From assembly GCA_014189435.1 (NCBI GenBank), contig CP050295.1, positions 1 through 64,000 on the forward strand: a stretch of DNA of 64,000 nt. The letters run 5' to 3'. The notes below the pieces were generated by a model. It searched no databases, had not been told where the DNA came from, and was given only the letters and a program-made list of their open reading frames with translations. The DNA comes from Mesorhizobium loti (lineage in GTDB: Bacteria > Pseudomonadota > Alphaproteobacteria > Rhizobiales > Rhizobiaceae). Position numbers and translations under genes: made by a program. Positions 4,715-35,809 of this stretch are shown here, one piece after another (the first letter of the stretch is position 1; the number at the start of each line of letters is the position of its first letter).

Positions 4715-4730
4715 TGTCGGACATGAGACA
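4715..4730 (+). promoter_or_regulatory. NifA upstream activator sequence
   Basis: The sequence TGTCGGACATGAGACA fits TGT-N10-ACA exactly. It lies 45 bp upstream of a -24/-12 element and in front of the prolyl oligopeptidase pseudogene. Confidence 0.8.
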
Positions 4731-4775
4731 CAACGCTATCAGCGTGATCGCTTGTTCTGAAACGATTTTCTCAGT

Positions 4776-4790
4776 TGGCACGACACATGC
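4776..4790 (+). promoter_or_regulatory. sigma54 -24/-12 promoter of the prolyl oligopeptidase gene
   Basis: TGGCACGACACATGC matches TGGCAC-N5-TTGC with one change (ATGC) and has the correct 12-base GG to GC spacing. The start codon at 4943 is about 150 bp downstream. With the NifA site at 4715-4730 this predicts NifA/RpoN-dependent expression in nodules. Confidence 0.8.
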
Positions 4791-4942
4791 GGTCCTATCC
4801 GCAATCGCACTGCCGCGCCGCACCGACTGAGAAGACCTCATCCCATGATCACCCTTTTCGAACATGCGGTCGCCCCCGCAAACACTGAGCTTTCCCAAGC
4901 CGACGGAAGCCATTGCGCTTTTCTTTCCTGGGTTGTGCGGAC

Positions 4943-10683: not shown

Positions 10684-11091
10684 ATGCAGCGACAGTATTT
10701 TTCGATGAGGCTGATCAGAGGAGGACATCCGCTGGGGCGTTCTGAATGTCCCTGCATCGAACGTGCCAGAAGGAAATTATGTCAAACCAACGGGCAGCAG
10801 GTTTGTGATCGGGTCGGGTATCTGCTCACGGCAGACTCAGACCAAGTTGCAACGGCCAAAATGTTTAGAGAACGATTCCCCGATAAGCAGATCATTAGTG
10901 TTGCCCGCCGGGCCGATCTCACAGCAAAAGAGATTTTGCCTCACGTTCACGATATCCGGTCAATCGAGAAAGCGACTATTGAAGCCTGCCAGTTTGAGGG
11001 TGCGGTCATAATCGTGAACGGTGAAAGGGTGGCTAAACGACCAGCTGAATATGCGCCGCCCGAAACTGCCGCCATTCAAATTGCAAACTGA
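10684..11091 (+). CDS. hypothetical protein or C-terminal gene relic
   Basis: This frame has 135 codons. From about 10800 its composition looks protein-like (VATAKMFRERFPDKQIISVA, then EKATIEACQFEGAVIIVNGE), whereas the first 40 codons look random. No ribosome binding site fits the first start codon. I do not recognise the family. It may be the 3' end of a gene whose 5' part is lost, lying between the N-monooxygenase and the carbonic anhydrase. A sigma54-like element for the opposite strand lies inside it. Confidence 0.35.
   Translation: MQRQYFSMRLIRGGHPLGRSECPCIERARRKLCQTNGQQVCDRVGYLLTADSDQVATAKMFRERFPDKQIISVARRADLTAKEILPHVHDIRSIEKATIEACQFEGAVIIVNGERVAKRPAEYAPPETAAIQIAN
10754..10768 (-). 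promoter_or_regulatory. candidate sigma54 promoter facing the N-monooxygenase gene
   Basis: On the minus strand the sequence reads TGGCACGTTCGATGC, with correct GG/GC spacing. No TGT-N10-ACA site was found in the 200 bp further upstream, and the gap to the start codon is long, so function is uncertain. Confidence 0.45.
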
Positions 11092-12859: not shown

Positions 12860-13141
12860 TGAGCAGCGAGGATCCGGCGGATGCGGAGGCGAAGATGGGT
12901 TTCGGTGTTCTGCAGCACCCCGCGCGGTCTCTTTGGAGCAAGTGATGATCTAGTCACCCCGACCATGGCGCGTGTTATCGCGTGTTATACGGCGAACAAA
13001 AAAGGCGACGGGCGGCGGCGGGCAGGGACGCCGGCGACCAGTTGCGTTCCTGCGCGTCTGTGGCATGCCGGGCGACATAAACAGGTTGGGGTCCATCGCT
13101 ACTTCGAACCCAACATGGTCTGAAACCGGTCTGGTCGCCAT
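12860..13141 (-). pseudogene. relic of the 5' end of a P450 gene like the intact one at 22-23 kb
   Basis: Read on the minus strand from an ATG at 13141, this segment aligns base by base with the first part of the intact P450 gene (start 23372). The relic has MATRPVSDHVG...LFMSPGMP where the intact gene has MAINWVPDHIP...LFKSPGML. Other shared blocks are the plus-strand GGCATGCCGGGCGACATAAA near 13062 and CTGCAGCACCC near 12910. Several indels break the frame and the similarity fades near 12860. Only about the first quarter of the gene remains. Its promoter region is also preserved in degenerate form (13348-13459). Confidence 0.75.
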
Positions 13142-13347
13142 CTGGTTTATCTCGGAGGTCAGTGTTCATGCACCGGATTGAGATCGCACTGCTGATCACA
13201 CAGTCGCGGTTACCAGTAGTTGTACAGTCCCGCCGGAGGCGGCTGTTGCGGGGGCAGTCCACCCGCCACGAGCGCGGATGAGATCGGTCGCGAATTCAAG
13301 CAGCTTGGGCCCTCCGCGACGCACGGCCGACAGGCAGAATTATCGAA

Positions 13348-13362
13348 GCAAGTTGCGTGCCG
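13348..13362 (-). promoter_or_regulatory. relic sigma54 promoter of the P450 pseudogene
   Basis: The minus strand reads CGGCACGCAACTTGC, identical over all 15 bases to the promoter of the intact P450 gene at 23541-23555. It would transcribe leftward into the relic. Confidence 0.7.
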
Positions 13363-16584: not shown

Positions 16585-17205
16585 TTAATCCAAAGCGATC
16601 CCGTTCTTGATGTGTGCGAGGCGGCTTTCGCCTTGCTCGGGGCCGAAGCAGCTTTCGAAATCATTGCATTCCCGGCAAGTGGGCGCGGTGCATAGCGAAA
16701 AACCTTCGGCCTCGCAGAGTTTGCGGTAGAAGTACTTCTTCCATTTCATGTTTTGGGTGTTGCCGGCTGCCAAGGTCGGAAAATGCGTGGCAAGCAGGCG
16801 GCTGAGCTCGGCCCGATTGAGAAGGCCAAGATCCTGCCAGAGATGGTTGTTGCGCATGGCACGCCGGGCGACGATCTTAGCGAAGCAGGCGCTCGCCGGA
16901 TCGCCCGGCCGGGCATGCGCCAGCAGCAGGCTGTGCAGAAGTTCTTCTTCCATTTCCGGCTTGGGGTCGCATAGCTCGTCCAAGGCGAAGGCGTTTATCG
17001 CGGTAGCGGGGAAACTGTGGGTCAGCACGTCGCGCAGCTCTGCGCGCGAAAGGCCGGTCGACTCCGTCGCCGTCGCCTCGCCGGCCTCGACCTCCTCGAG
17101 CGCACACGAAAGCACACAGGCAAGCACATGCTGATCGAACCCCCTCTTCAACTCGATCCGCGGCCATTGGCGGGCGCAGAGCCAACCATAGTGATGAGCG
17201 AACAT
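16585..17205 (-). CDS. nifQ: NifQ, molybdenum donor for FeMo-cofactor synthesis
   Basis: The protein has 206 residues from ATG 17205, which has CAGGAGAA upstream. NifQ is an iron-sulfur protein that supplies molybdenum for FeMo-co. The C-terminal cysteine cluster CTAPTCRECNDFESC (C-x4-C-x2-C-x5-C) near residues 175-190 is the family hallmark, and NMKWKKYFYRKLCE just before it is also conserved. The reading frame upstream is open without a stop into the decayed fdxB, so a fused product is formally possible. It is last in a leftward series that begins with the P450 gene, all on the minus strand, and is convergent with rpoN2. Confidence 0.9.
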   Translation of the reverse strand: MFAHHYGWLCARQWPRIELKRGFDQHVLACVLSCALEEVEAGEATATESTGLSRAELRDVLTHSFPATAINAFALDELCDPKPEMEEELLHSLLLAHARPGDPASACFAKIVARRAMRNNHLWQDLGLLNRAELSRLLATHFPTLAAGNTQNMKWKKYFYRKLCEAEGFSLCTAPTCRECNDFESCFGPEQGESRLAHIKNGIALD

Positions 17206-17523
17206 GGTGCCGTTCTCCTGGTCGTCTGCCGCGACCTTGTCGGCCGCAACATGCGTCTGGCAGTTCTTTGGGTAAATGCGGGCTCCGCAGCCAATGCAGC
17301 GGCCGGCCTGGTCGACGAGCATGATCATGCGGTTGAGCTCGGCGTCGAGGTGTTCGCCCTCGCCGGCGCCGAGGATTCACTCGCTGATCGACGCTATGGA
17401 GGTGCACCGCGCGCGCGAGCAGACCTTGAAGCAGCGGCCGAAGCCGATGCAGGTCGTGCCGTCGAGAGTGGTCAGATATCGCGGCACCCATCTGGAGGCG
17501 TCGCGGGTGACGAAAGCGCTCAT
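17206..17523 (-). pseudogene. fdxB: FdxB-type ferredoxin, degenerate
   Basis: The start ATG at 17523 gives SAFVTRDASRWVPRYLTTLDG, typical of nif-associated 2[4Fe-4S] ferredoxins. The first cluster reads CIGFGRCFKVC where CIGCGRCFKVC is expected, so one ligand is Phe. The frame then meets a stop at 17377-17379 after local indels. The second cluster reads CIGCGARIYPKNC where the family has CIGCGACxRxCPKNC, so two cysteines are missing. Both clusters are therefore damaged independently, which argues for real decay and not sequencing error. The remaining frame runs into nifQ with no stop. Confidence 0.8.
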
Positions 17524-17820
17524 CGGGAGTTCCCCAATGCATGGAGCTTTCTTGCAGCTGCTGAGCGCCCGGGGTACCGCGGACATGCGGAAGCTGCATC
17601 CTCACTATGCGAGCGGCATAGTGACACCGCTTCCGGGCCGCAGACCAGAGCCACAGCGATGGATAGCCTGGCAAGGCACTGGTTTGACTGATCCTCGACA
17701 TAGGTTACCCCCAACCCCATCGCGACAAGCGACCTGGAGATTCCGTCCTACCTTGTCCGCGCGCTTCTGCCCTTTCGAGACGACAAGCAGATGAGGTGGA
17801 AGCTCAAGCCGTTGCGGATT

Positions 17821-18873
17821 TCAAACCCTCGCCTCAGGGAGGGACTTGTTGACCGCCGGGATGATCTTGTCTCCCCAGAGCTCGATCTGGCGCAGCATTG
17901 TCTTTTGGTCGAAATCCCCCAATTGGGTCTGAATTGCGATCTGGTCCGGTTTCAGGATATCCATCTCTTCCAGTAGGCGATCAATCACGCGATTCACGCT
18001 GCCGATCGGCAGGTTCTCGCGCATAGTCTCCAATGACAGATCCTGCTGCGTCGGCGTTTCCTGCAGCAAATAGCCGTCCAGGCTCTGCTGGCGGCGCTGA
18101 TGCAGTGCTTCAGACAGCCGGCGCTGGAAGCGGGCATTGTCGAGATAGCTGTTTATCTCTGCCTGGTCGTCGCTGGCATAGCAGCAACGCAGCAGCGATA
18201 TCCTGGCGTCCGTGACATTCTTACCTTCGGAAGCCGCCGCCTCCTCGATCGATTCGCGCAGCGTGCTCAAAGTCTCTAAGCCGTTGTGGAATGCTGTGAC
18301 AAAGAAATTGTGTCCCTCGCGATAGGCCCGGCTCATGCGCAGGGGACCGCCGGCGATCCAGATCGGCGGGGTCGGCTTCTGGACGGTGGGCACCGAAATC
18401 GCCGTCGGGGGTATCTTCTCATACCGGCCATCGTGCTCGAAGATATTTTGGTTGAGGCCCTTCAGAAGGATGTCCAGATATTCCGAAAAGATGGCCGGCG
18501 CCTCATCGATGTTGACGCCGAAGCGTTCGAACTCGAATTGCTGGTATCCCACGCCGACTCCGAGCTCGAGACGGCCGTTCGCCACGACGTCGGCGAAGCC
18601 GATCTCGGAAAGCAGTCGCTGCGGGTGATAGAGCGGCAACACGCAGACGGCAGTGCCGAGGCGAATGGTGCTTGTCAGGCCGGCGCAGTGCGCCACCATC
18701 ATCAAGGGCGACGGAACAAGGCTGTAATTGTTGAAGTGGTGCTCGGCGAACCAGGCGGTGTTGAAGCCAGCCTGCTCCGAAAGAACGGCTTGTTCGATTG
18801 AGTTGCGGATGACGCTGTCGGAGGATTGATGATAGCCGCGCTGGGCGGCCAGGATGAAGGTTGCGAATTCCAT
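17821..18873 (-). CDS. LLM-class flavin-dependent oxidoreductase (bacterial luciferase-like)
   Basis: The protein has 350 residues and is a TIM-barrel flavin monooxygenase that would use reduced FMN and oxygen on an unknown substrate. The N-terminus MEFATFILAAQRGYHQSSDS, AWFAEHHFNNYSLVPSP near residues 40-57 (family EHHF), TIRLGTAVCVLPLYHPQRL near residue 70, ADVVANGRLELGVGVGYQ near residue 95 and PPIWIAGG near residue 170 are diagnostic. It corresponds by type and order to y4vJ of NGR234. It lies between the double SDR and fdxB-nifQ, all leftward, and may be co-transcribed with the P450 genes. A 315 bp gap separates it from the SDR gene. Confidence 0.88.
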   Translation of the reverse strand: MEFATFILAAQRGYHQSSDSVIRNSIEQAVLSEQAGFNTAWFAEHHFNNYSLVPSPLMMVAHCAGLTSTIRLGTAVCVLPLYHPQRLLSEIGFADVVANGRLELGVGVGYQQFEFERFGVNIDEAPAIFSEYLDILLKGLNQNIFEHDGRYEKIPPTAISVPTVQKPTPPIWIAGGPLRMSRAYREGHNFFVTAFHNGLETLSTLRESIEEAAASEGKNVTDARISLLRCCYASDDQAEINSYLDNARFQRRLSEALHQRRQQSLDGYLLQETPTQQDLSLETMRENLPIGSVNRVIDRLLEEMDILKPDQIAIQTQLGDFDQKTMLRQIELWGDKIIPAVNKSLPEARV

Positions 18874-19189
18874 GGTCTTTCATGTCTCCAGAGGGAATTG
18901 GTAGATCAGGGGATGCGATCGGCATGCGCGCAGAAGGCCTTGGCCACGGTGTGGATCCGATGCTTGGCGGCGGCATAGTCTTGCGGCAAACCGCTCGCAT
19001 TCTGCGGTTGCACGCGCGCCCGCGAGCGGTTGGAACTGCTTCGACCGCGATGGGGACGTGTTCGTCGCCGCCGAAAATCTTCGATCCTAGACAGCGCTGC
19101 GGGCGCGGCGCGGGCGGAGCTTGAAGCCTTGGATGTCGTCGGCTTCGACGAGCCGCAGCCGTCGCCTGGCGAATGGCGAATGGCGATAA
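18874..19189. other. gap between the SDR and monooxygenase genes, no gene recognised
   Basis: Minus-strand frames here contain no known motif. The sequence may be a decayed small gene, since neighbouring genes in the series are otherwise closer together. No terminator or -24/-12 promoter was seen. Confidence 0.35.
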
Positions 19190-20788
19190 TCAACCAGCGT
19201 CCTCCGCAAAATATTCGTCATAGAATTCGCTGGCGTTTCCCGCATCGCCGAACGAGGTCCAGCCGCCGTCCACATAGAGGATCGAGCCGTTGATGTATGA
19301 GGCGTCAGACGAAGCGAGGAAAAACGCCGCGTCTGCGACGTCTTCCGGCCGTCCCATCATGCCCATCGGAATTCGTCGTGCGATCGCTGTTGAGTCGATG
19401 CGGCCGGCCTTCAACTGAGCAAGTGCAGGCGTGCGGATGTAACCGGGAGCGACGGTGGCTGTCCGAATGCCGATCGGCCCGAGTTCGGCCGCCATGCATC
19501 GGGTCAGCATGTCCATCCCCGCTTTCGAGGCGCCGTAGGCATGGCGCGGCGCAAAGGGCAGAAAGCTGTTGATCGATCCGAGATTGAGGATCACGCCGCC
19601 GGGGCGCATCGCTTTGGCCGCCTCACGCGCGCAAGTGAAGGCGCCGGTGAGATTGACATCCAGGACCTGGTCGATTTCTGCCGGCATTTGTTCGATGCCC
19701 GCCACAAAGGTGTCGGCAATAGCAGCACCGTTGACGAGGATGTCGATGCGCCCGAAGCGTCCCCTCATCTCCTCGAACAGCGCCACCACCTCGCTCTCGA
19801 TGGCCACATCCACGAATTTCGCCAGGTTCTTTCCGCCGAGCGATCCAGCGAGTACAGTAGCGGCAGCGCGATCTTTATCAGCAATCACGACGGTATCGCC
19901 GGTCGCTGCAAAACGGCGAACTATGGCGGCGCCTATGCCGTTCGCGCCACCCGTGACGAGCACGATTCGCGCATCGGTTCGTTCGCTCTCAGAAGAGAGC
20001 TCGGCTCTGGGCGTCCCTTCCACCGCCGGGTGCGCGTCCCCCGGCTGGTTGAATGACGTCCAGCCGCCGTCGACCACCAGCACCGATCCGGTGATGTAGC
20101 GCGCCTCAACTCTGGTCAGAAAACGCACGGCCCGGGCGATCTCGTCGGGCCGCGCCATGCGCCCCATCGGCACGCGGCGGCGTACCGCCGCAAGGTCCAT
20201 TTTACCCGCGCGTTCCAGTTCTGCGACCATCGGCGTGCGCACATAGCCTGGCGCAACCGCCGTCACGCGTATGCCGCGCGAAGCCCATTCGCATGCAAGC
20301 GACTTCGTCAACGAGATCAGGCCCGCTTTCGAGGCTGCGTAGGCATTGCGCCTGGGACTGCCGACCATCCCCGCCAGCGAAGCGACGTTGACGATGGCGC
20401 CGTCCAGCTTCATCCGCCTCGCCGCTTCGCGGGCCATGACAAACGGCCCAATCAGGTTTACTGCCAAGCCGCGCCGGAAGGCATCGGCTGCCGTGTCGAC
20501 AGTCGCAGTCATGGTCGGTCCGATGGCCGCGTTGTTGATGAGAACGTCGATCTGAGCGAACTGCGCTTCGACCCGGCCATAAAGGGCGAGGACTTCCACG
20601 TCTCGCGAGACGTCGCATTCGAGGCCAAGATGCGGGTCGCCGAGGCCACGGGCCAGTTCAACCACGCCGCTGCCCGGAAGGTCCACCGCAACAACAGTGT
20701 CTCCACCCCCAGCAAGGATATCGACCAGGGCCCGGCCGATCCCGCCCGCGGCGCCTGTAATGATGACGATGCGTCCTTCCCGCTTCAT
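19190..20788 (-). CDS. double short-chain dehydrogenase/reductase (two SDR domains in one chain)
   Basis: The protein has 532 residues, twice the usual SDR size. Domain 1 (about 5-250) has the cofactor motif TGAAGGIG, NNAAIG and the catalytic AYAASKAG. Domain 2 (about 272-515) repeats these as TGGANGIG, NGAAIA and AYGASKAG. Each domain ends with VDGGWTSF, so both look catalytically complete. Such enzymes oxidise alcohols or reduce ketones with NAD(P). A protein of this double build is known in NGR234 as y4vI beside a P450, which matches the context here. Two sequential oxidations of the P450 product, or one pseudo-dimer active on a single substrate, are both possible. Confidence 0.9.
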   Translation of the reverse strand: MKREGRIVIITGAAGGIGRALVDILAGGGDTVVAVDLPGSGVVELARGLGDPHLGLECDVSRDVEVLALYGRVEAQFAQIDVLINNAAIGPTMTATVDTAADAFRRGLAVNLIGPFVMAREAARRMKLDGAIVNVASLAGMVGSPRRNAYAASKAGLISLTKSLACEWASRGIRVTAVAPGYVRTPMVAELERAGKMDLAAVRRRVPMGRMARPDEIARAVRFLTRVEARYITGSVLVVDGGWTSFNQPGDAHPAVEGTPRAELSSESERTDARIVLVTGGANGIGAAIVRRFAATGDTVVIADKDRAAATVLAGSLGGKNLAKFVDVAIESEVVALFEEMRGRFGRIDILVNGAAIADTFVAGIEQMPAEIDQVLDVNLTGAFTCAREAAKAMRPGGVILNLGSINSFLPFAPRHAYGASKAGMDMLTRCMAAELGPIGIRTATVAPGYIRTPALAQLKAGRIDSTAIARRIPMGMMGRPEDVADAAFFLASSDASYINGSILYVDGGWTSFGDAGNASEFYDEYFAEDAG

Positions 20789-21092
20789 AAGAACTTCTCC
20801 GCGCCGAGCCTCAGCGATGTCACCCCATCAATATTGGGCGGCCAAATGATCCGTTGCGGCAAAGCAGCACGTCCTGGTGATGGCCAGTTGGCCGGCGAAG
20901 CTGGCGACGGACCCTTTGATGAGAGCCGATCTGGATCCATGTAAGCCACTTGCCTCTGCGAACCGGTCCTCCGGTCTGAGCTTGGGGGTCGGAGACTGCC
21001 GCGCAACAGAGTCCCGTTCTTGCGTCAGCAAATTTATCAGCGACAGAGCAGACCGCTGTTGCGGTCACGCCCCTACGGGACAGGGCAGGCTC
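20789..21092. other. gap between SnoaL-like and SDR genes
   Basis: About 300 bp without a convincing frame, terminator or promoter. It lies inside the presumed P450 operon. Confidence 0.35.
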
Positions 21093-21698
21093 TCACCGGG
21101 ATCGCTGTGCCATTGCAAAATCATCATAGCTTTTGTCTCTGTTCGGAACCTCTGCAGGCCTGATGGCGAGGAGGATGCGATGCTTCTCAAGCGCGTAGAC
21201 TGGGTCATCCGGATGAGGTGCGCCGATAGGCTGCCGCGACCCGAACCGTTCTGCCTCAGGGATCGCTGCTGGGATCTGCTCCTCGAGCCAATCGTAGACC
21301 ACCGTCCGTTCGGCAATCCGCCACTCCCCTTCCCTTTTCTGAAACAGATCGCAGTAGCGCCCGCAGAGGAGCGTCTGGCGTACTTCTCCGTGTTTGTCCG
21401 GTCCGCGTTGCAGCGCGGTGAAATAGCTCTCGACCGCGGCTTCTGTCGGGCTGATGAATTCGATCAGGATGTTCGTGATCTGATGGATGTTGCGAGGCCC
21501 GGTCTGGAAGACCCCGAGCGCAAACCGGATGAAGCCCTCTGCCGAGCCGCAATAGGCGCCGTGATTGTCATGCGCATCGAGCCAGTACGCGCTGCGCAAC
21601 GCCGCCTCGTCCGCGCGATCTATCCCGCGGCAGTACCGATAGAGGCAGTCGCGGATCGCTTCACGGTCGAGTAGTTCGGTAATTTTTCCCTGGTCCAT
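21093..21698 (-). CDS. SnoaL-like / ring-hydroxylating dioxygenase beta-subunit-like protein (NTF2 fold)
   Basis: The protein has 201 residues from ATG 21698. It begins [20 protein letters not shown] and has [19 protein letters not shown], a pattern of NTF2-fold proteins that include SnoaL-type isomerases, dehydratases and dioxygenase beta subunits. [20 protein letters not shown] and [19 protein letters not shown] are further family blocks. Without an alpha-subunit Rieske gene nearby, an isomerase, cyclase or dehydratase role acting on the P450 product is more likely than a dioxygenase subunit. The start lacks a strong ribosome binding site, so an upstream start is possible. Confidence 0.75.
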
Positions 21699-21865
21699 CG
21701 TCTTTGTCGCAAATGCTGTGATCGGAAGAGGTTCGCTAAGCCGCCCAAGTTTTTTCACACCATGAGAGCACCTCGTTTCCGGAGATGCCCCTGCACCGTT
21801 GGCCCAGGACGGCGGCGCGCCGCATGCCGTTCTTTCCAGTGTTCGGCCACTTGGTCGACCCGCAA

Positions 21866-22111
21866 TCAAACCCGCCGGCCTCTCGGTTGAATGACATCCG
21901 ATTCAGCCCGCGCAGCGGGTGTAGCGTCGAGTTCCAGTGCACGTTCGGGGCAAGATCGCGTGCCTCGTGACGCAAGTAGGTGCTTCCCCTCCGCAACCTC
22001 AATGTCACCAGGCAGGATGTAGCCCTCGTCATCGAGCTTGAAGATATCGGGCGCTTGCGCCGAGCATCGCGCGTGACCCTGGCATTTGTGTTTATGGACG
22101 ATGATGCGCAT
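21866..22111 (-). CDS. [3Fe-4S] ferredoxin of the P450 partner type
   Basis: The protein has 81 residues. It begins [20 protein letters not shown] and ends its core with SCPERALEL. The spacing C-x5-C with a distant CP and only three cluster cysteines is typical of ferredoxins that pass electrons to bacterial cytochromes P450. [13 protein letters not shown] in the middle is also conserved in this group. It starts 43 bp after the P450 stop and is certainly its electron partner by position. The last 20 residues exceed the usual length and may be a read-through tail. Confidence 0.88.
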
Positions 22112-22154
22112 ACCGCTTCCTTCAATTTCCGTGCCCGCTCGGGGCTGGGCTTCA

Positions 22155-23372
22155 TCAGGACCAGTGCAGGATCAGATTTTTGATCCCGAATACATGGCCG
22201 CCAGAGGTGATGGGTGCCGTACCTTTCTTGATCCGGAAGGCCGGAATGCGCGCCAGCCACTCCTCCAGGCCAATGACAATCTCTCGCCGGGCAAGGTGTG
22301 AGCCAAGACAGCGGTGGGGACCATAGCCAAAGGCGGCGTGGCGGTTGTTCTCTCGCGCCAGATCGATCGTGTTGGGGCATTCGAATTCTGCCGGGTCACG
22401 ATTGGCAATCATCGTGGCGCAGGAAACGTAATCCCCCTTACGGATCGGCACTCCTTCGAAGTCGATGTCCTTGGTTGCCACTCGGATCATCTGAACGGTC
22501 GGATAGGCGCGCAGCAATTCTTCAACTGCGAGCGCGATCCGGTCCGGTTCGCTCCGCAGCAGTTCCTGATCTTTGAGGTTGCGGGCGAGATACGCCAAGT
22601 CAAAGCCTATGGCAGCTGCCACCGTGTCGAGCCCCGCGACGAACACAAGCACGCCGATGCCACGGACTTCCACGTCGCTTAGCTGGCGGCCCTCAACCTG
22701 TGCCTGCAGGATGAAGGTCATAAAATCGTCGACCGGGTCCTTACGGCGCTTGGTCGCAAGTTCGTCGATAAAGGCAACAATTGTCTGGGCAGCGGCCGGT
22801 CGTTTCAGATGGTCGCCGTGGATGAGATCTTTCGCCCAGCCGACAAATGTATCGAGCCGGTGATCCGGCAACCCTAGAAAGCGAAGGAAGATGTTGACCG
22901 TGAAAGGAAAGGCGAACTCCTTCATGACGTCGCAGCTTGTGCCCGCTGCGGCAATCCTATCGATCAGCGTGACCGCTCGCTCGCGGATAGCCGGCTCCAA
23001 TACCATGGCCCGCTTTGGCGAAAGCAGCGGATTGAGCAGTGAGCGAAAAACGCCATGGGCCGGTGGGTCAAGTTCGAGCGGGATCATCGGCCAGTTTTCG
23101 CCCAGCGCGGATGCGAAGATGCTGCGATGGCTCGAAAAGGTTTCAGCGTCCTGCAGCACCCGGCGCTGGTCGCTGGCGCGAGTGATGACCCAGGTGCCGC
23201 GGCCATCGCGCGTGTTGTAGGGAGAATAGAAGATCGGCGGCCCGGCATGGACGCAAGCGACCGCTGCGTGCGGGTCCCCGTTGGGCGCCGGCAGCATGCC
23301 TGGCGACTTAAACAGGCTGAAGTCCCTCACCATTTCGGGCGGGATGTGATCTGGAACCCAGTTAATCGCCAT
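22155..23372 (-). CDS. cytochrome P450 (CYP127-like)
   Basis: The protein has 405 residues from ATG 23372, preceded by GAGGAG; a 15-bp longer frame exists but is less well placed. Heme-thiolate motif FGYGPHRCLGSHLARRE lies near residue 345, the I-helix AGLDTVAAAI near residue 240 and the K-helix EELLR near residue 280. It is a soluble bacterial monooxygenase of unknown substrate. The gene set of P450, small ferredoxin, double SDR and luciferase-like enzyme next to nifQ matches the region of NGR234 that includes CYP127A1 (y4vG), which is why I suggest that family. It heads a leftward series behind a NifA/sigma54 promoter 169 bp upstream. It is not the gibberellin operon, which needs CYP112/114/117 and diterpene cyclases. 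Confidence 0.92.
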   Translation of the reverse strand: MAINWVPDHIPPEMVRDFSLFKSPGMLPAPNGDPHAAVACVHAGPPIFYSPYNTRDGRGTWVITRASDQRRVLQDAETFSSHRSIFASALGENWPMIPLELDPPAHGVFRSLLNPLLSPKRAMVLEPAIRERAVTLIDRIAAAGTSCDVMKEFAFPFTVNIFLRFLGLPDHRLDTFVGWAKDLIHGDHLKRPAAAQTIVAFIDELATKRRKDPVDDFMTFILQAQVEGRQLSDVEVRGIGVLVFVAGLDTVAAAIGFDLAYLARNLKDQELLRSEPDRIALAVEELLRAYPTVQMIRVATKDIDFEGVPIRKGDYVSCATMIANRDPAEFECPNTIDLARENNRHAAFGYGPHRCLGSHLARREIVIGLEEWLARIPAFRIKKGTAPITSGGHVFGIKNLILHWS

Positions 23373-23540
23373 TTGGCTTCTCCTCAATGTCAGGCGTGCT
23401 GGCGCTCGATCGGGATCCCACGGCTGGTCACACGTCGATTGCCAGCGTTCGGCACGTCCTGGCTCAGGCGCCGTAAAGATTGGCCGTCACCGCTGAACTC
23501 CATCAAGCAGTGCTGACGTCCCCTGACTAAACTTGTCGGG

Positions 23541-23555
23541 GCAAGTTGCGTGCCG
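23541..23555 (-). promoter_or_regulatory. sigma54 -24/-12 promoter of the P450 operon
   Basis: The minus strand reads CGGCACGCAACTTGC, matching TGGCAC-N5-TTGC at all but the first base with the correct 12-base spacing. The P450 start codon is about 170 bp downstream. Confidence 0.88.
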
Positions 23556-23638
23556 ATTAGCGCACCGTTTGCGTTGCACCAGTTGGCCCGAACCGGTGGC
23601 CCGGTCTTGGCGGCCTTTTGGTCGGATGGCGACATTCT

Positions 23639-23654
23639 TGTTCAGCTTCGGACA
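23639..23654 (-). promoter_or_regulatory. NifA upstream activator sequence of the P450 operon
   Basis: TGTTCAGCTTCGGACA fits TGT-N10-ACA. It is 84 bp upstream of the -24 element, a normal distance for NifA. Confidence 0.82.
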
Positions 23655-23873: not shown

Positions 23874-25489
23874 CCCGTCCTATTCACGAGCGGCCTGGTT
23901 CCTTGCCGCTTGGCGTTCGGTCATGAAGGTGTGAGGCGTCTTTTTCACCGCAGCTGAGACTGGACTTTGGAACGCGCTGGAGGGTCAAGGTATCGGGTTC
24001 GGTGGGGCTTTGATGCCCCGGCGCTCATGGCCCTGCGGGCTGCAGCGTGATGGCGATCGTTCGGAACAGACTTGCTTCGGGACAGGCGGCGGCGAAGGCC
24101 AGACGGATGCGCGAGACGGTTTCGGTGACGCGGGCGCCGAGCTTGAGAAGCCTGAGCCGCAGTGTAGAGAACTCGGCGTTGCACAGATGATGGGTCGTGG
24201 GCACTGCCTCGCGCAGGGTGAGCATCAACCAGTATGCGGCGGTGTGCAGGACGAGACGGACCTGGTTGGCAATCGGTGAGCGGCAGCTGGTGCGGTCGGA
24301 GGCGAGCTGGCTCTTGTGCATCTTGATCAGGTTTTCGGCCTGGCCGCGGGCGCAGTAGATCACATCGTAGACATGCTCGGCGGAGCCTTTGTCGAGATTG
24401 GTGACGACGAAGCGGATGTCGAGGCCGAGGGTGGTTGCCTCGATGCGGGCGCAGGCGCGGCGTTCCGTCCTCCAGGATTTCGCCTTGTATCGGGTCTCGG
24501 CATAGCCGCGCAGCACCGGCTTCTGCTCGAGCGCGCGGCGGGTGCGGATATCGTCGGCGGCTTCATCAACGAGACGCTGGAGAACCTTGTTGCCGGGCAA
24601 TCCGAAGAGGTAGTCGACCGCATTGTCCTCGCACCATGCCATGACTTGCGCCCGGCCATAGTGGCCATCGCCGCGGATCAGAATGCGGGTGGTCGGCCAG
24701 CGGGCGCGGATGCGCCGGACAAGCCGGCGCAGATGGCCGCGGATCTCCTTGCCCGCCGGGGTCCTGCCAGGACGCAGGATCATGGCGACCGGGCGTCCTG
24801 TCGCGGCGTCGTAGATGTGGATCGGCAGGAAGCAACGCTCGTCGTAATGGGCGTTGAACAGCGAGAGCTGCTGATGGCCGTGAACGACATCCACCGTGTC
24901 GTCGATGTCGAGCGTGACGCTTTTGGGCGGCGCGGCATAGCTCGACAGCCACAGATCGACCAGCACCCAGCCGAGCCGGATGACGGTGCGCAGGTCGGGC
25001 AGGTTCTCGAGGCGCGAGCATGTCGGCTGCGAGCACAGATCAATCCCGCTGTCGGGCAGCCGCCCGCAGGCGAGCTTGAAGGCCGGGTCGGTGCGCAGCC
25101 GGTCGAGATCGTTGGCATCCTCGTAGCCGCATGCGATCGCAAAGATGCGGGCGCGCACAATGTCGGCCATGGCGTGCGTCACCCGCGCTGGATCGCGCGG
25201 ATCGTGGATCGCGGCGGCCAGCCTGTCGGCCAGTTGCAGGCGTCGCTCGGCCGCTGCCAAAAGCATGACGCCACCATCCGAGGTGATGCGTCCGCCGTCA
25301 AACGCAGCTGTGATCTTCTTGCGTCCAACGGCTGGAAATGAGAGCGGCAGCAACGTATCATCGGTCATGGCGGGTGTGGCTCGCGAGAGGCGGTGGCAGG
25401 GTTGGCTTAGACAACCGAATCCTACGCTAAATCAATCGCTTAGGCTACATCCGCCAACCTCTCAGACGCAACGTCGTGCATAAGACGGG
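23874..25489. mobile_element. IS1380-family insertion sequence, complete, 1616 bp
   Basis: The left end reads CCCGTCCTATTCACGAGC and the right end, in reverse complement, reads CCCGTCTTATGCACGACG, so the terminal repeats match imperfectly over about 18 bases. The element is flanked by the direct repeat CTAG at 23870-23873 and 25490-25493, a four-base target duplication as expected for IS1380. It holds one transposase gene on the minus strand. It inserted upstream of the P450 operon promoter region without breaking a recognised gene. Confidence 0.9.
24025..25368 (-). CDS. IS1380-family transposase
   Basis: The protein has 447 residues with a DDE-type catalytic core. SDGGVMLLAAAERRL near the N-terminus, TLDIDDTVDVVHGHQQLSLF with its catalytic Asp near residue 152, ILIRGDGHYGR with a second Asp near residue 230, and YCARGQAENLIKMHK with the Glu near residue 343 are typical. 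The length and unbroken frame suggest an active enzyme. The long opposite-strand frame over the same bases is a shadow of high-GC coding. Confidence 0.93.
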   Translation of the reverse strand: MTDDTLLPLSFPAVGRKKITAAFDGGRITSDGGVMLLAAAERRLQLADRLAAAIHDPRDPARVTHAMADIVRARIFAIACGYEDANDLDRLRTDPAFKLACGRLPDSGIDLCSQPTCSRLENLPDLRTVIRLGWVLVDLWLSSYAAPPKSVTLDIDDTVDVVHGHQQLSLFNAHYDERCFLPIHIYDAATGRPVAMILRPGRTPAGKEIRGHLRRLVRRIRARWPTTRILIRGDGHYGRAQVMAWCEDNAVDYLFGLPGNKVLQRLVDEAADDIRTRRALEQKPVLRGYAETRYKAKSWRTERRACARIEATTLGLDIRFVVTNLDKGSAEHVYDVIYCARGQAENLIKMHKSQLASDRTSCRSPIANQVRLVLHTAAYWLMLTLREAVPTTHHLCNAEFSTLRLRLLKLGARVTETVSRIRLAFAAACPEASLFRTIAITLQPAGP

Positions 25490-35650: not shown

Positions 35651-35666
35651 TGTCGAGAAGCCGACA
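35651..35666 (+). promoter_or_regulatory. NifA upstream activator sequence before fixA
   Basis: TGTCGAGAAGCCGACA fits TGT-N10-ACA, 71 bp upstream of the -24 element. Confidence 0.88.
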
Positions 35667-35737
35667 AATCCGGTCATCACGACGCCGCCCTCAGCGCAAC
35701 CAACCGAACTTCCAGGAATATAGGCACGCAAAACAAT

Positions 35738-35752
35738 TGGCACGAATGATGC
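35738..35752 (+). promoter_or_regulatory. sigma54 -24/-12 promoter of fixABCX
   Basis: TGGCACGAATGATGC matches TGGCAC-N5-TTGC with one change and correct spacing; fixA starts 57 bp downstream. Confidence 0.9.
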
Positions 35753-35809
35753 GGGGGAGAAGATGAACTGCCAAGTCCGTATCCCGATAGGAGCCTAGAG
35801 AAACCGCCA

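Follow-up and report, generated by a model that had tools for sequence, protein, structure and literature searches.

A NifA-type cytochrome P450 operon of Mesorhizobium loti with a module derived from a catabolic operon of non-symbiotic relatives

A NifA-type cytochrome P450 locus lies at 16585..23654, on the minus strand, of the 64,000-nt stretch of Mesorhizobium loti that we analysed (CP050295.1; hereafter the window, to which all coordinates refer). It consists of genes for a CYP127-type P450, a ferredoxin, a SnoaL-like protein, a double-domain short-chain dehydrogenase/reductase (SDR-SDR) and a luciferase-like flavin monooxygenase (LLM), followed by a broken fdxB and by nifQ. Judged from gene order and from gene remnants, a degradative operon of non-symbiotic relatives is the source of the SnoaL-SDR-SDR-LLM module. 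Operons of this type, and their control by NifA, are prior art (y4vGHIJ of Sinorhizobium fredii NGR234, msi332 of M. loti R7A). Relative to the published passages available, three points appear to be new: the origin in a catabolic operon, the gene remnants that speak for this origin and the separate loss of two modules; in those passages we found no stated function for a NifA-controlled CYP127 cluster.

Descent of the SnoaL-SDR-SDR-LLM module

Outside symbiotic loci, relatives of the window LLM were 71-84% identical to it; Pseudomonas sp. CCC3.1 is a named carrier of the LLM. At E up to 1e-80, an LLM was present in 32 of the 394 genomes of a family sample, symbionts included. Sampling across the class gave no carrier besides the own genome (1/385). 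We surveyed twenty LLM neighbourhoods of up to 20 kb and ten more stretches of the upstream side, among which twelve were non-symbiotic and had an LLM of at least 70% identity. A CoA ligase, SnoaL, SDR-SDR and LLM were consecutive in 11 of these twelve, and the exception (L114) had SnoaL and LLM only. The other genes called were a binding protein (10 stretches), an SDR (9), a second LLM (8), an SMP-30 lactonase (7), a flavin reductase (7) and a 97-aa orphan (5), counts that may be too low because the picking of open reading frames (ORFs) can miss genes. The fullest order, seen in three stretches (L121, L122 and L123), was second LLM, SDR, binding protein, lactonase, CoA ligase, SnoaL, flavin reductase, SDR-SDR, orphan, LLM. 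The flanks, as annotated in L134, comprise a branched-chain-type ABC transporter, an IclR regulator, an AMP ligase, two acyl-CoA dehydrogenases and an enoyl-CoA hydratase. Three remoter LLM stretches (L126, L127 and L132; about 63%) were located in other clusters, and Roseobacter plasmids carried a remoter version with an LLM of about 61%. In one symbiont genome (G836), the symbiotic operon was accompanied by two further LLM loci, one of them an ancestral-type cluster and the other more distant.

In the non-symbiotic Rhizobiaceae operon (for example, in L121, L117 and L123), SnoaL, SDR-SDR and LLM are ordered and oriented as in the window. That operon also has the binding protein, lactonase, CoA ligase, flavin reductase and 97-aa orphan, adjoins the ABC transporter and is without CYP127. 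Two of the genes missing from the window have left traces in its intergenic gaps. By tblastn, the flavin reductase of the ancestral operon matched the SnoaL|SDR gap (~300 bp) with 38.5 bits, compared with 25.4 bits for the best of 200 shuffles; for the 97-aa orphan in the SDR|LLM gap (~315 bp), the corresponding values were 31.6 and 21.2 bits. Genome contigs scanned with the P450 as seed yielded 61 related loci, and the same traces occur there. Among 11 loci with a match to the flavin reductase, seven had it in the expected gap, three (Microvirga loci without SDR) directly after SnoaL and one (L063) elsewhere. All nine loci with a match to the orphan had it in the SDR|LLM gap. As judged from these matches, the two gaps hold gene remnants and are not plain spacers. 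Together with the shared gene order, these remnants show that the catabolic operon gave rise to the symbiotic one.

The orphan belongs to a family of 97-98 aa (F10; L121:10594-10887 and relatives), which was found between SDR-SDR and LLM in all five loci where it was called. The L121 member had no Pfam or NCBIfam match. A 96-aa match to F10, at 58%, was present in M. albiziae (L064).

Promoter, conservation and two separable modules

The original prediction had placed the locus behind a near-consensus sigma54 promoter and a perfect NifA site, and both were found upstream of the P450 gene (Table 1). As a chance baseline we used thirty model sequences with the dinucleotide transitions of the window, counting as a pair a box with a score of at least 10 and a site 30-200 bp apart. 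The models had a mean of 0.17 pairs per 64 kb, compared with five in the window. Between 23638 and 16585, that is, from the P450 promoter to the end of nifQ, no second TGT-N10-ACA was found; the single upstream site is consistent with NifA-dependent transcription reaching nifQ, without proving it. Two of the 61 related loci were too short to be scanned for promoters. Among the other 59, a box scoring at least 10 with a NifA site preceded the P450 gene in 27, a box alone in 6 and neither in 26. The last figure is an overcount, as boxes of the R7A type escape a scan that requires GC at -12, and it includes four non-symbiont loci (L053, L054, L066 and L068). The motif CGGCACG-N4-TTGC was present upstream of the P450 gene in 28 of the 59.

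In NGR234, the cluster nifQ-dctA1-y4vGHIJ has orthologues of the P450, SnoaL (NTF2), SDR and LLM genes next to nifQ and in matching order (75, 72, 65 and 84% identity), so the likeness to y4vG-y4vJ proposed earlier for this locus is borne out. The P450 of NGR234 is, we presume, CYP127A1. In NGR234, nifQ and a dicarboxylate symporter come first and no ferredoxin is annotated between P450 and NTF2, whereas in the window the P450 comes first, a ferredoxin follows and nifQ is last. With four orthologues that share one orientation and adjoin nif genes and, at the sequence level, a sigma54 box and a NifA site upstream, the locus can be assigned to the y4vGHIJ/CYP127 type of NifA operon.

All five enzyme genes were uninterrupted in 27 of the 61 loci (best matches near full length, free of stops, close by and in one direction), which answers the earlier proposal to look for the gene set outside this strain. 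The P450 was found in 6 of 397 genomes of an order-level sample, the own genome included. The ratio of nonsynonymous to synonymous substitution rates (dN/dS), calculated against up to 15 chosen relatives, was mostly 0.1-0.3 for all five genes, similar to that of nifQ. On sequence grounds, this is a genuine and conserved operon of the NifA type, and its kind is already known.

Experimental results from R7A point in the same direction as the predicted control by NifA and RpoN, for which the site pairs here and in the 27 loci also speak. According to Sullivan et al. 2013 (PMC3538637), the P450 gene msi332 and a possible ferredoxin gene, msi331, sit behind a NifA-type promoter, and the activity of an msi332::lacZ fusion was 446.6 Miller units in the wild type but 14.6 in a nifA2 mutant. 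R7A differs from the window in a nifQ fragment between promoter and P450 and in its box, printed as TTGGCACGACTTTTGAA (PMC3538637). A cytochrome P450 (cpx) is also named as a member of the NifA regulon in a passage of PMC4999443. NifA control of a CYP127-type operon is already described and is not new.

Further boxes occur in the window. A decayed 5′ region of a second P450 gene lies at 12898-13362 (66% over 320 bp). It is preceded at 13362 (minus strand) by a near-identical sigma54 box, CGGCACGCAACTTGCT, with no TGT-N10-ACA within 250 bp. More sigma54 boxes were found at 4715-4791, 10768, 13833 and 35651-35753, two of which (4776 and 35738) have a NifA site upstream. The box at 4776, TGGCACGACACATGCG, matches that of the R7A porin gene msi158, and the one at 10768, TGGCACGTTCGATGCA, matches that of msi280 (PMC3538637).

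We also surveyed the co-occurrence of CYP127 (cut-off, E up to 1e-60) and NifQ in 18 of the 32 LLM-bearing genomes, chosen as those from which stretches were available. Both were present in the same six genomes and both were missing from the other 12. In the LLM tree, a branch (96/90) separated 45 symbiont rows from 18 free-living rows, a split that fits a single recruitment. In this tree L115, which carries CYP127 and a dctA-like gene, was labelled as a symbiont and L089 was left unassigned; the long row L080 was dropped, as was L111, while its copy L132 stayed.

P450 and ferredoxin without the other enzymes were found in seven of the 61 loci, three of them sphingomonad and four presumably of the R. 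tropici type; the remaining loci were partial. Sphingomonad clusters share with the window the P450 and ferredoxin at 78-80% identity; in L054, L066 and L053 the P450 was 78-79% identical, and SnoaL-SDR-LLM was not found there. The neighbours differ: in L054 they are CoA transferases, a thiolase, acyl-CoA dehydrogenases, an aldehyde dehydrogenase and a TonB receptor. Four sphingomonad rows were nested inside the symbionts in the P450 tree, with weak support (82/84) and with outgroups too distant to give the direction of transfer. Plasmids of S. meliloti and R. leguminosarum keep SnoaL and LLM (and SDR in R. leguminosarum, e.g. L082), and among the matches listed their P450 matches were partial or degraded. 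The S. meliloti SnoaL-LLM stretch was 95-100% identical, at full or part length, in 65 of the 72 plasmid records with a match. It was not preceded by a sigma54/NifA pair in the stretch scanned, and the R. leguminosarum module was preceded by a weak pair. These plasmid matches (L081 and L082) suggest that the SnoaL-LLM module spread alone on plasmids.

The pattern of matches indicates that the P450-ferredoxin and SnoaL-SDR-LLM modules were lost separately in different symbionts. As each is found without the other, the modules are separable, which weighs against a strictly linear pathway of five enzymes. The original prediction of a single coherent five-gene pathway is not supported in this form: SnoaL-SDR-LLM is a non-symbiotic module without P450, and P450 with ferredoxin stands alone in presumed R. 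tropici-type symbionts and in sphingomonads.

Predicted chemistry and alternative explanations

We consider it somewhat less than an even chance (about 0.45) that the nif regulon has here taken over a catabolic pathway in truncated form, with the chemistry on a cyclic isoprenoid-like compound that is proposed here. The sequences show the symbiont module joined to CYP127 and its ferredoxin behind a NifA/sigma54 promoter, without the genes for lactonase, CoA ligase and flavin reductase. In the bacteroid, CYP127 fed by the ferredoxin would hydroxylate the isoprenoid-like compound, the SnoaL protein would remove water through an Asp-His-Arg lyase site, and the double SDR would oxidize hydroxyl groups to ketones with NAD. 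The LLM, with FMNH2 from a general flavin reductase, would then insert oxygen next to a ketone, as type II Baeyer-Villiger monooxygenases do, and give a lactone or an ester. The product would not be opened or degraded by the ancestral route in this strain, because its genome encodes nothing close to the ancestral lactonase and CoA ligase. A search of the own genome for the full ancestral pathway revealed no close orthologues; the best matches were 43% for lactonase, 32% for CoA ligase and 39% for flavin reductase. Paralogues could be recruited for these three steps.

Isomerisation or cyclisation, the role first suggested for the SnoaL protein, seems less likely than dehydration. The protein has the lyase fold of the LinA and scytalone dehydratase type. 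Its D27 and H72 align with the catalytic Asp-His of LinA (D25 and H73 in what we take to be the LinA numbering) and are invariant in 33 sequences; the position of LinA Lys20 is occupied by Tyr. The LLM has the bacterial-luciferase fold, its predicted model being nearest to 2i7g, RslO1 and LuxA. It thereby resembles the type II Baeyer-Villiger monooxygenases, with ketone-to-lactone activity predicted, but a gene for a flavin reductase partner is present in the ancestral operon only. The closest working analogy is the camphor pathway of Pseudomonas putida, in which a P450cam-type hydroxylase is followed by a dehydrogenase and a luciferase-family type II Baeyer-Villiger monooxygenase. The window differs in having an additional LinA-like enzyme and a double SDR, and its LLM is only ~19% identical to 3,6-diketocamphane monooxygenase. 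The camphor pathway ferredoxin is presumably of a different type as well. Searches of the literature found no match for the gene combination of the operon, and no matching cluster in titles or abstracts for abscisic or jasmonic acid, two candidate substrates. One CYP127 member, CYP127A3, is listed as a testosterone hydroxylase in a passage of PMC8197338.

It is also possible, but doubtful, that bacteroids oxidize a host-derived compound (a defence terpenoid, a steroid or a hormone) and that general chromosomal enzymes finish its breakdown. Catabolic clusters are the source or the present setting of both modules, the genome has general paralogues of lactonase and flavin reductase, and a host-dependent substrate would fit the patchy loss. 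However, purifying selection still acts on the oxygenases although the ancestral lactonase and CoA ligase are gone, and control by NifA instead of by the substrate would be odd for such a role. That the operon is a relic, carried along beside nifQ and decaying without function, is quite unlikely. The two remnants in the window, the broken fdxB, the decayed second P450 5′ end and the many partial losses would agree with it, and most NifA2-regulated genes of R7A were dispensable for fixation (PMC3538637). Nevertheless, the R7A msi332::lacZ fusion strain retained an intact P450 gene, so the P450 was not knocked out and is not covered by that result (PMC3538637). In addition, all five genes are open and under purifying selection at a dN/dS like that of nifQ, and the promoter box is almost invariant across many loci.

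A role in redox or oxygen balance, in which the P450 and the flavin oxygenase mainly use up oxygen or reductant for the microoxic bacteroid, appears very unlikely. Both oxygenases require O2, as is established for such enzymes, and a NifA-controlled cytochrome P450 (cpx) is grouped with microoxic adaptation in PMC4999443. However, such a role leaves the SnoaL and SDR genes and the descent from a catabolic operon unexplained, and oxygenases are generally slow oxygen sinks. We give the lowest probability, a very small one, to the enzymes modifying gibberellin or another bacteroid-made diterpenoid, although CYP127 co-occurs with CYP112/114/117 in 10 species (listed in a passage of PMC8197338) and in R7A both operons have NifA-type promoters (PMC3538637). 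The genome has seven scattered P450 genes without an adjacent trio of the gibberellin type, although no search was made for the diterpene cyclases of that operon. On the P450 genes, a gibberellin link is rejected for this strain, in agreement with the distinction from the gibberellin operon drawn earlier. The SnoaL-LLM module is also kept in non-symbiotic genomes and in S. meliloti and R. leguminosarum, which are not known to have the gibberellin operon.

Under the preferred reading of a captured, truncated catabolic pathway, we would go one step further only as an unlikely speculation: a breakdown pathway might have been turned into a bacteroid-only production line by dropping lactonase and CoA ligase and adding CYP127. 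Its output during nitrogen fixation, made for the host or from it, would be an isoprenoid derivative of the lactone type. Hosts that differ in the steps they supply would then explain why some symbionts have the P450 only and others SnoaL-SDR-LLM only. If the product were host-active, a further small molecule would join gibberellin among those that rhizobia make in nitrogen-fixing nodules. Half of this NifA-controlled cluster comes from a catabolic operon that is still complete in non-symbiotic relatives. The question thus becomes a practical one, namely, what induces that operon or which compound it consumes, and the function of the symbiotic operon is now directly testable through free-living relatives.

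Gene layout and neighbouring features

Table 1. Features of the P450 locus in the window.
Feature	Position	Strand	Remarks
NifA upstream activator site, TGT-N10-ACA	23639..23654	.	perfect; 84 bp upstream of the sigma54 box
sigma54 -24/-12 box, CGGCACG-CAAC-TTGCC (CGGCACGCAACTTGCC)	23540..23555, start 23555	-	10/12 consensus positions
Cytochrome P450, CYP127-type	22155..23372	-	Pfam PF00067; 74.7% to NGR234 P450
Single-cluster ferredoxin, CxxHxxC...CP type	21866..22111	-	Pfam PF13459; intact motif read from sequence
SnoaL_4 / LinA-scytalone-dehydratase-like protein, predicted dehydratase	21093..21698	-	D27, H72 and R131 kept
Decayed flavin reductase of the ancestral operon	20823..21080	-	pieces in more than one frame; tblastn 38.5 bits
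Double-domain SDR dehydrogenase	19190..20788	-	Pfam/NCBIfam PRK06484
Decayed 97-aa orphan (F10) of the ancestral operon	18909..19197	-	start and end pieces; 31.6 bits
LLM (bacterial-luciferase family) flavin monooxygenase	17821..18873	-	PF00296
Broken fdxB	17248..17586	-	NCBIfam TIGR02936 on the tail (residues 1-27 of the nifQ ORF)
nifQ	16585..17205; ORF opens 17328	-	PF04891

The genes listed by the original prediction (P450, ferredoxin, SnoaL-like protein, SDR-SDR and LLM in one direction) are all present on the minus strand. As read from the sequence, the haem motif of the P450, FGYGPHRCLG, is intact, and TGxxxGxG and Ser-Tyr-Lys are found in each of the two SDR domains, so that both active sites are intact. 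P450cam provided the top PDB matches of the P450, and SDR-SDR had no match among PDB chains at E 1e-50.

A decayed fdxB and an intact nifQ had likewise been expected at the end of the operon, and this description holds. In the translation of fdxB, the first cluster motif reads CIGFGRC, with a cluster Cys replaced, and an in-frame stop follows at 17377-17379; the front part was named from what we take to be a ferredoxin motif. The Mo-site motif of NifQ, C-x4-C-x2-C-x5-C, is intact. Because the nifQ ORF starts inside the fused tail of the broken fdxB, the true start of nifQ is probably near 17205. Automatic annotation from 17328 would assign nifQ a false N-terminus, as the ORF opens within the fdxB tail (17205-17328). 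At the other end of the locus, a transposase-like ORF, presumably of the IS1380 type, is located at 24025-25368, ~370 bp upstream of the NifA site.

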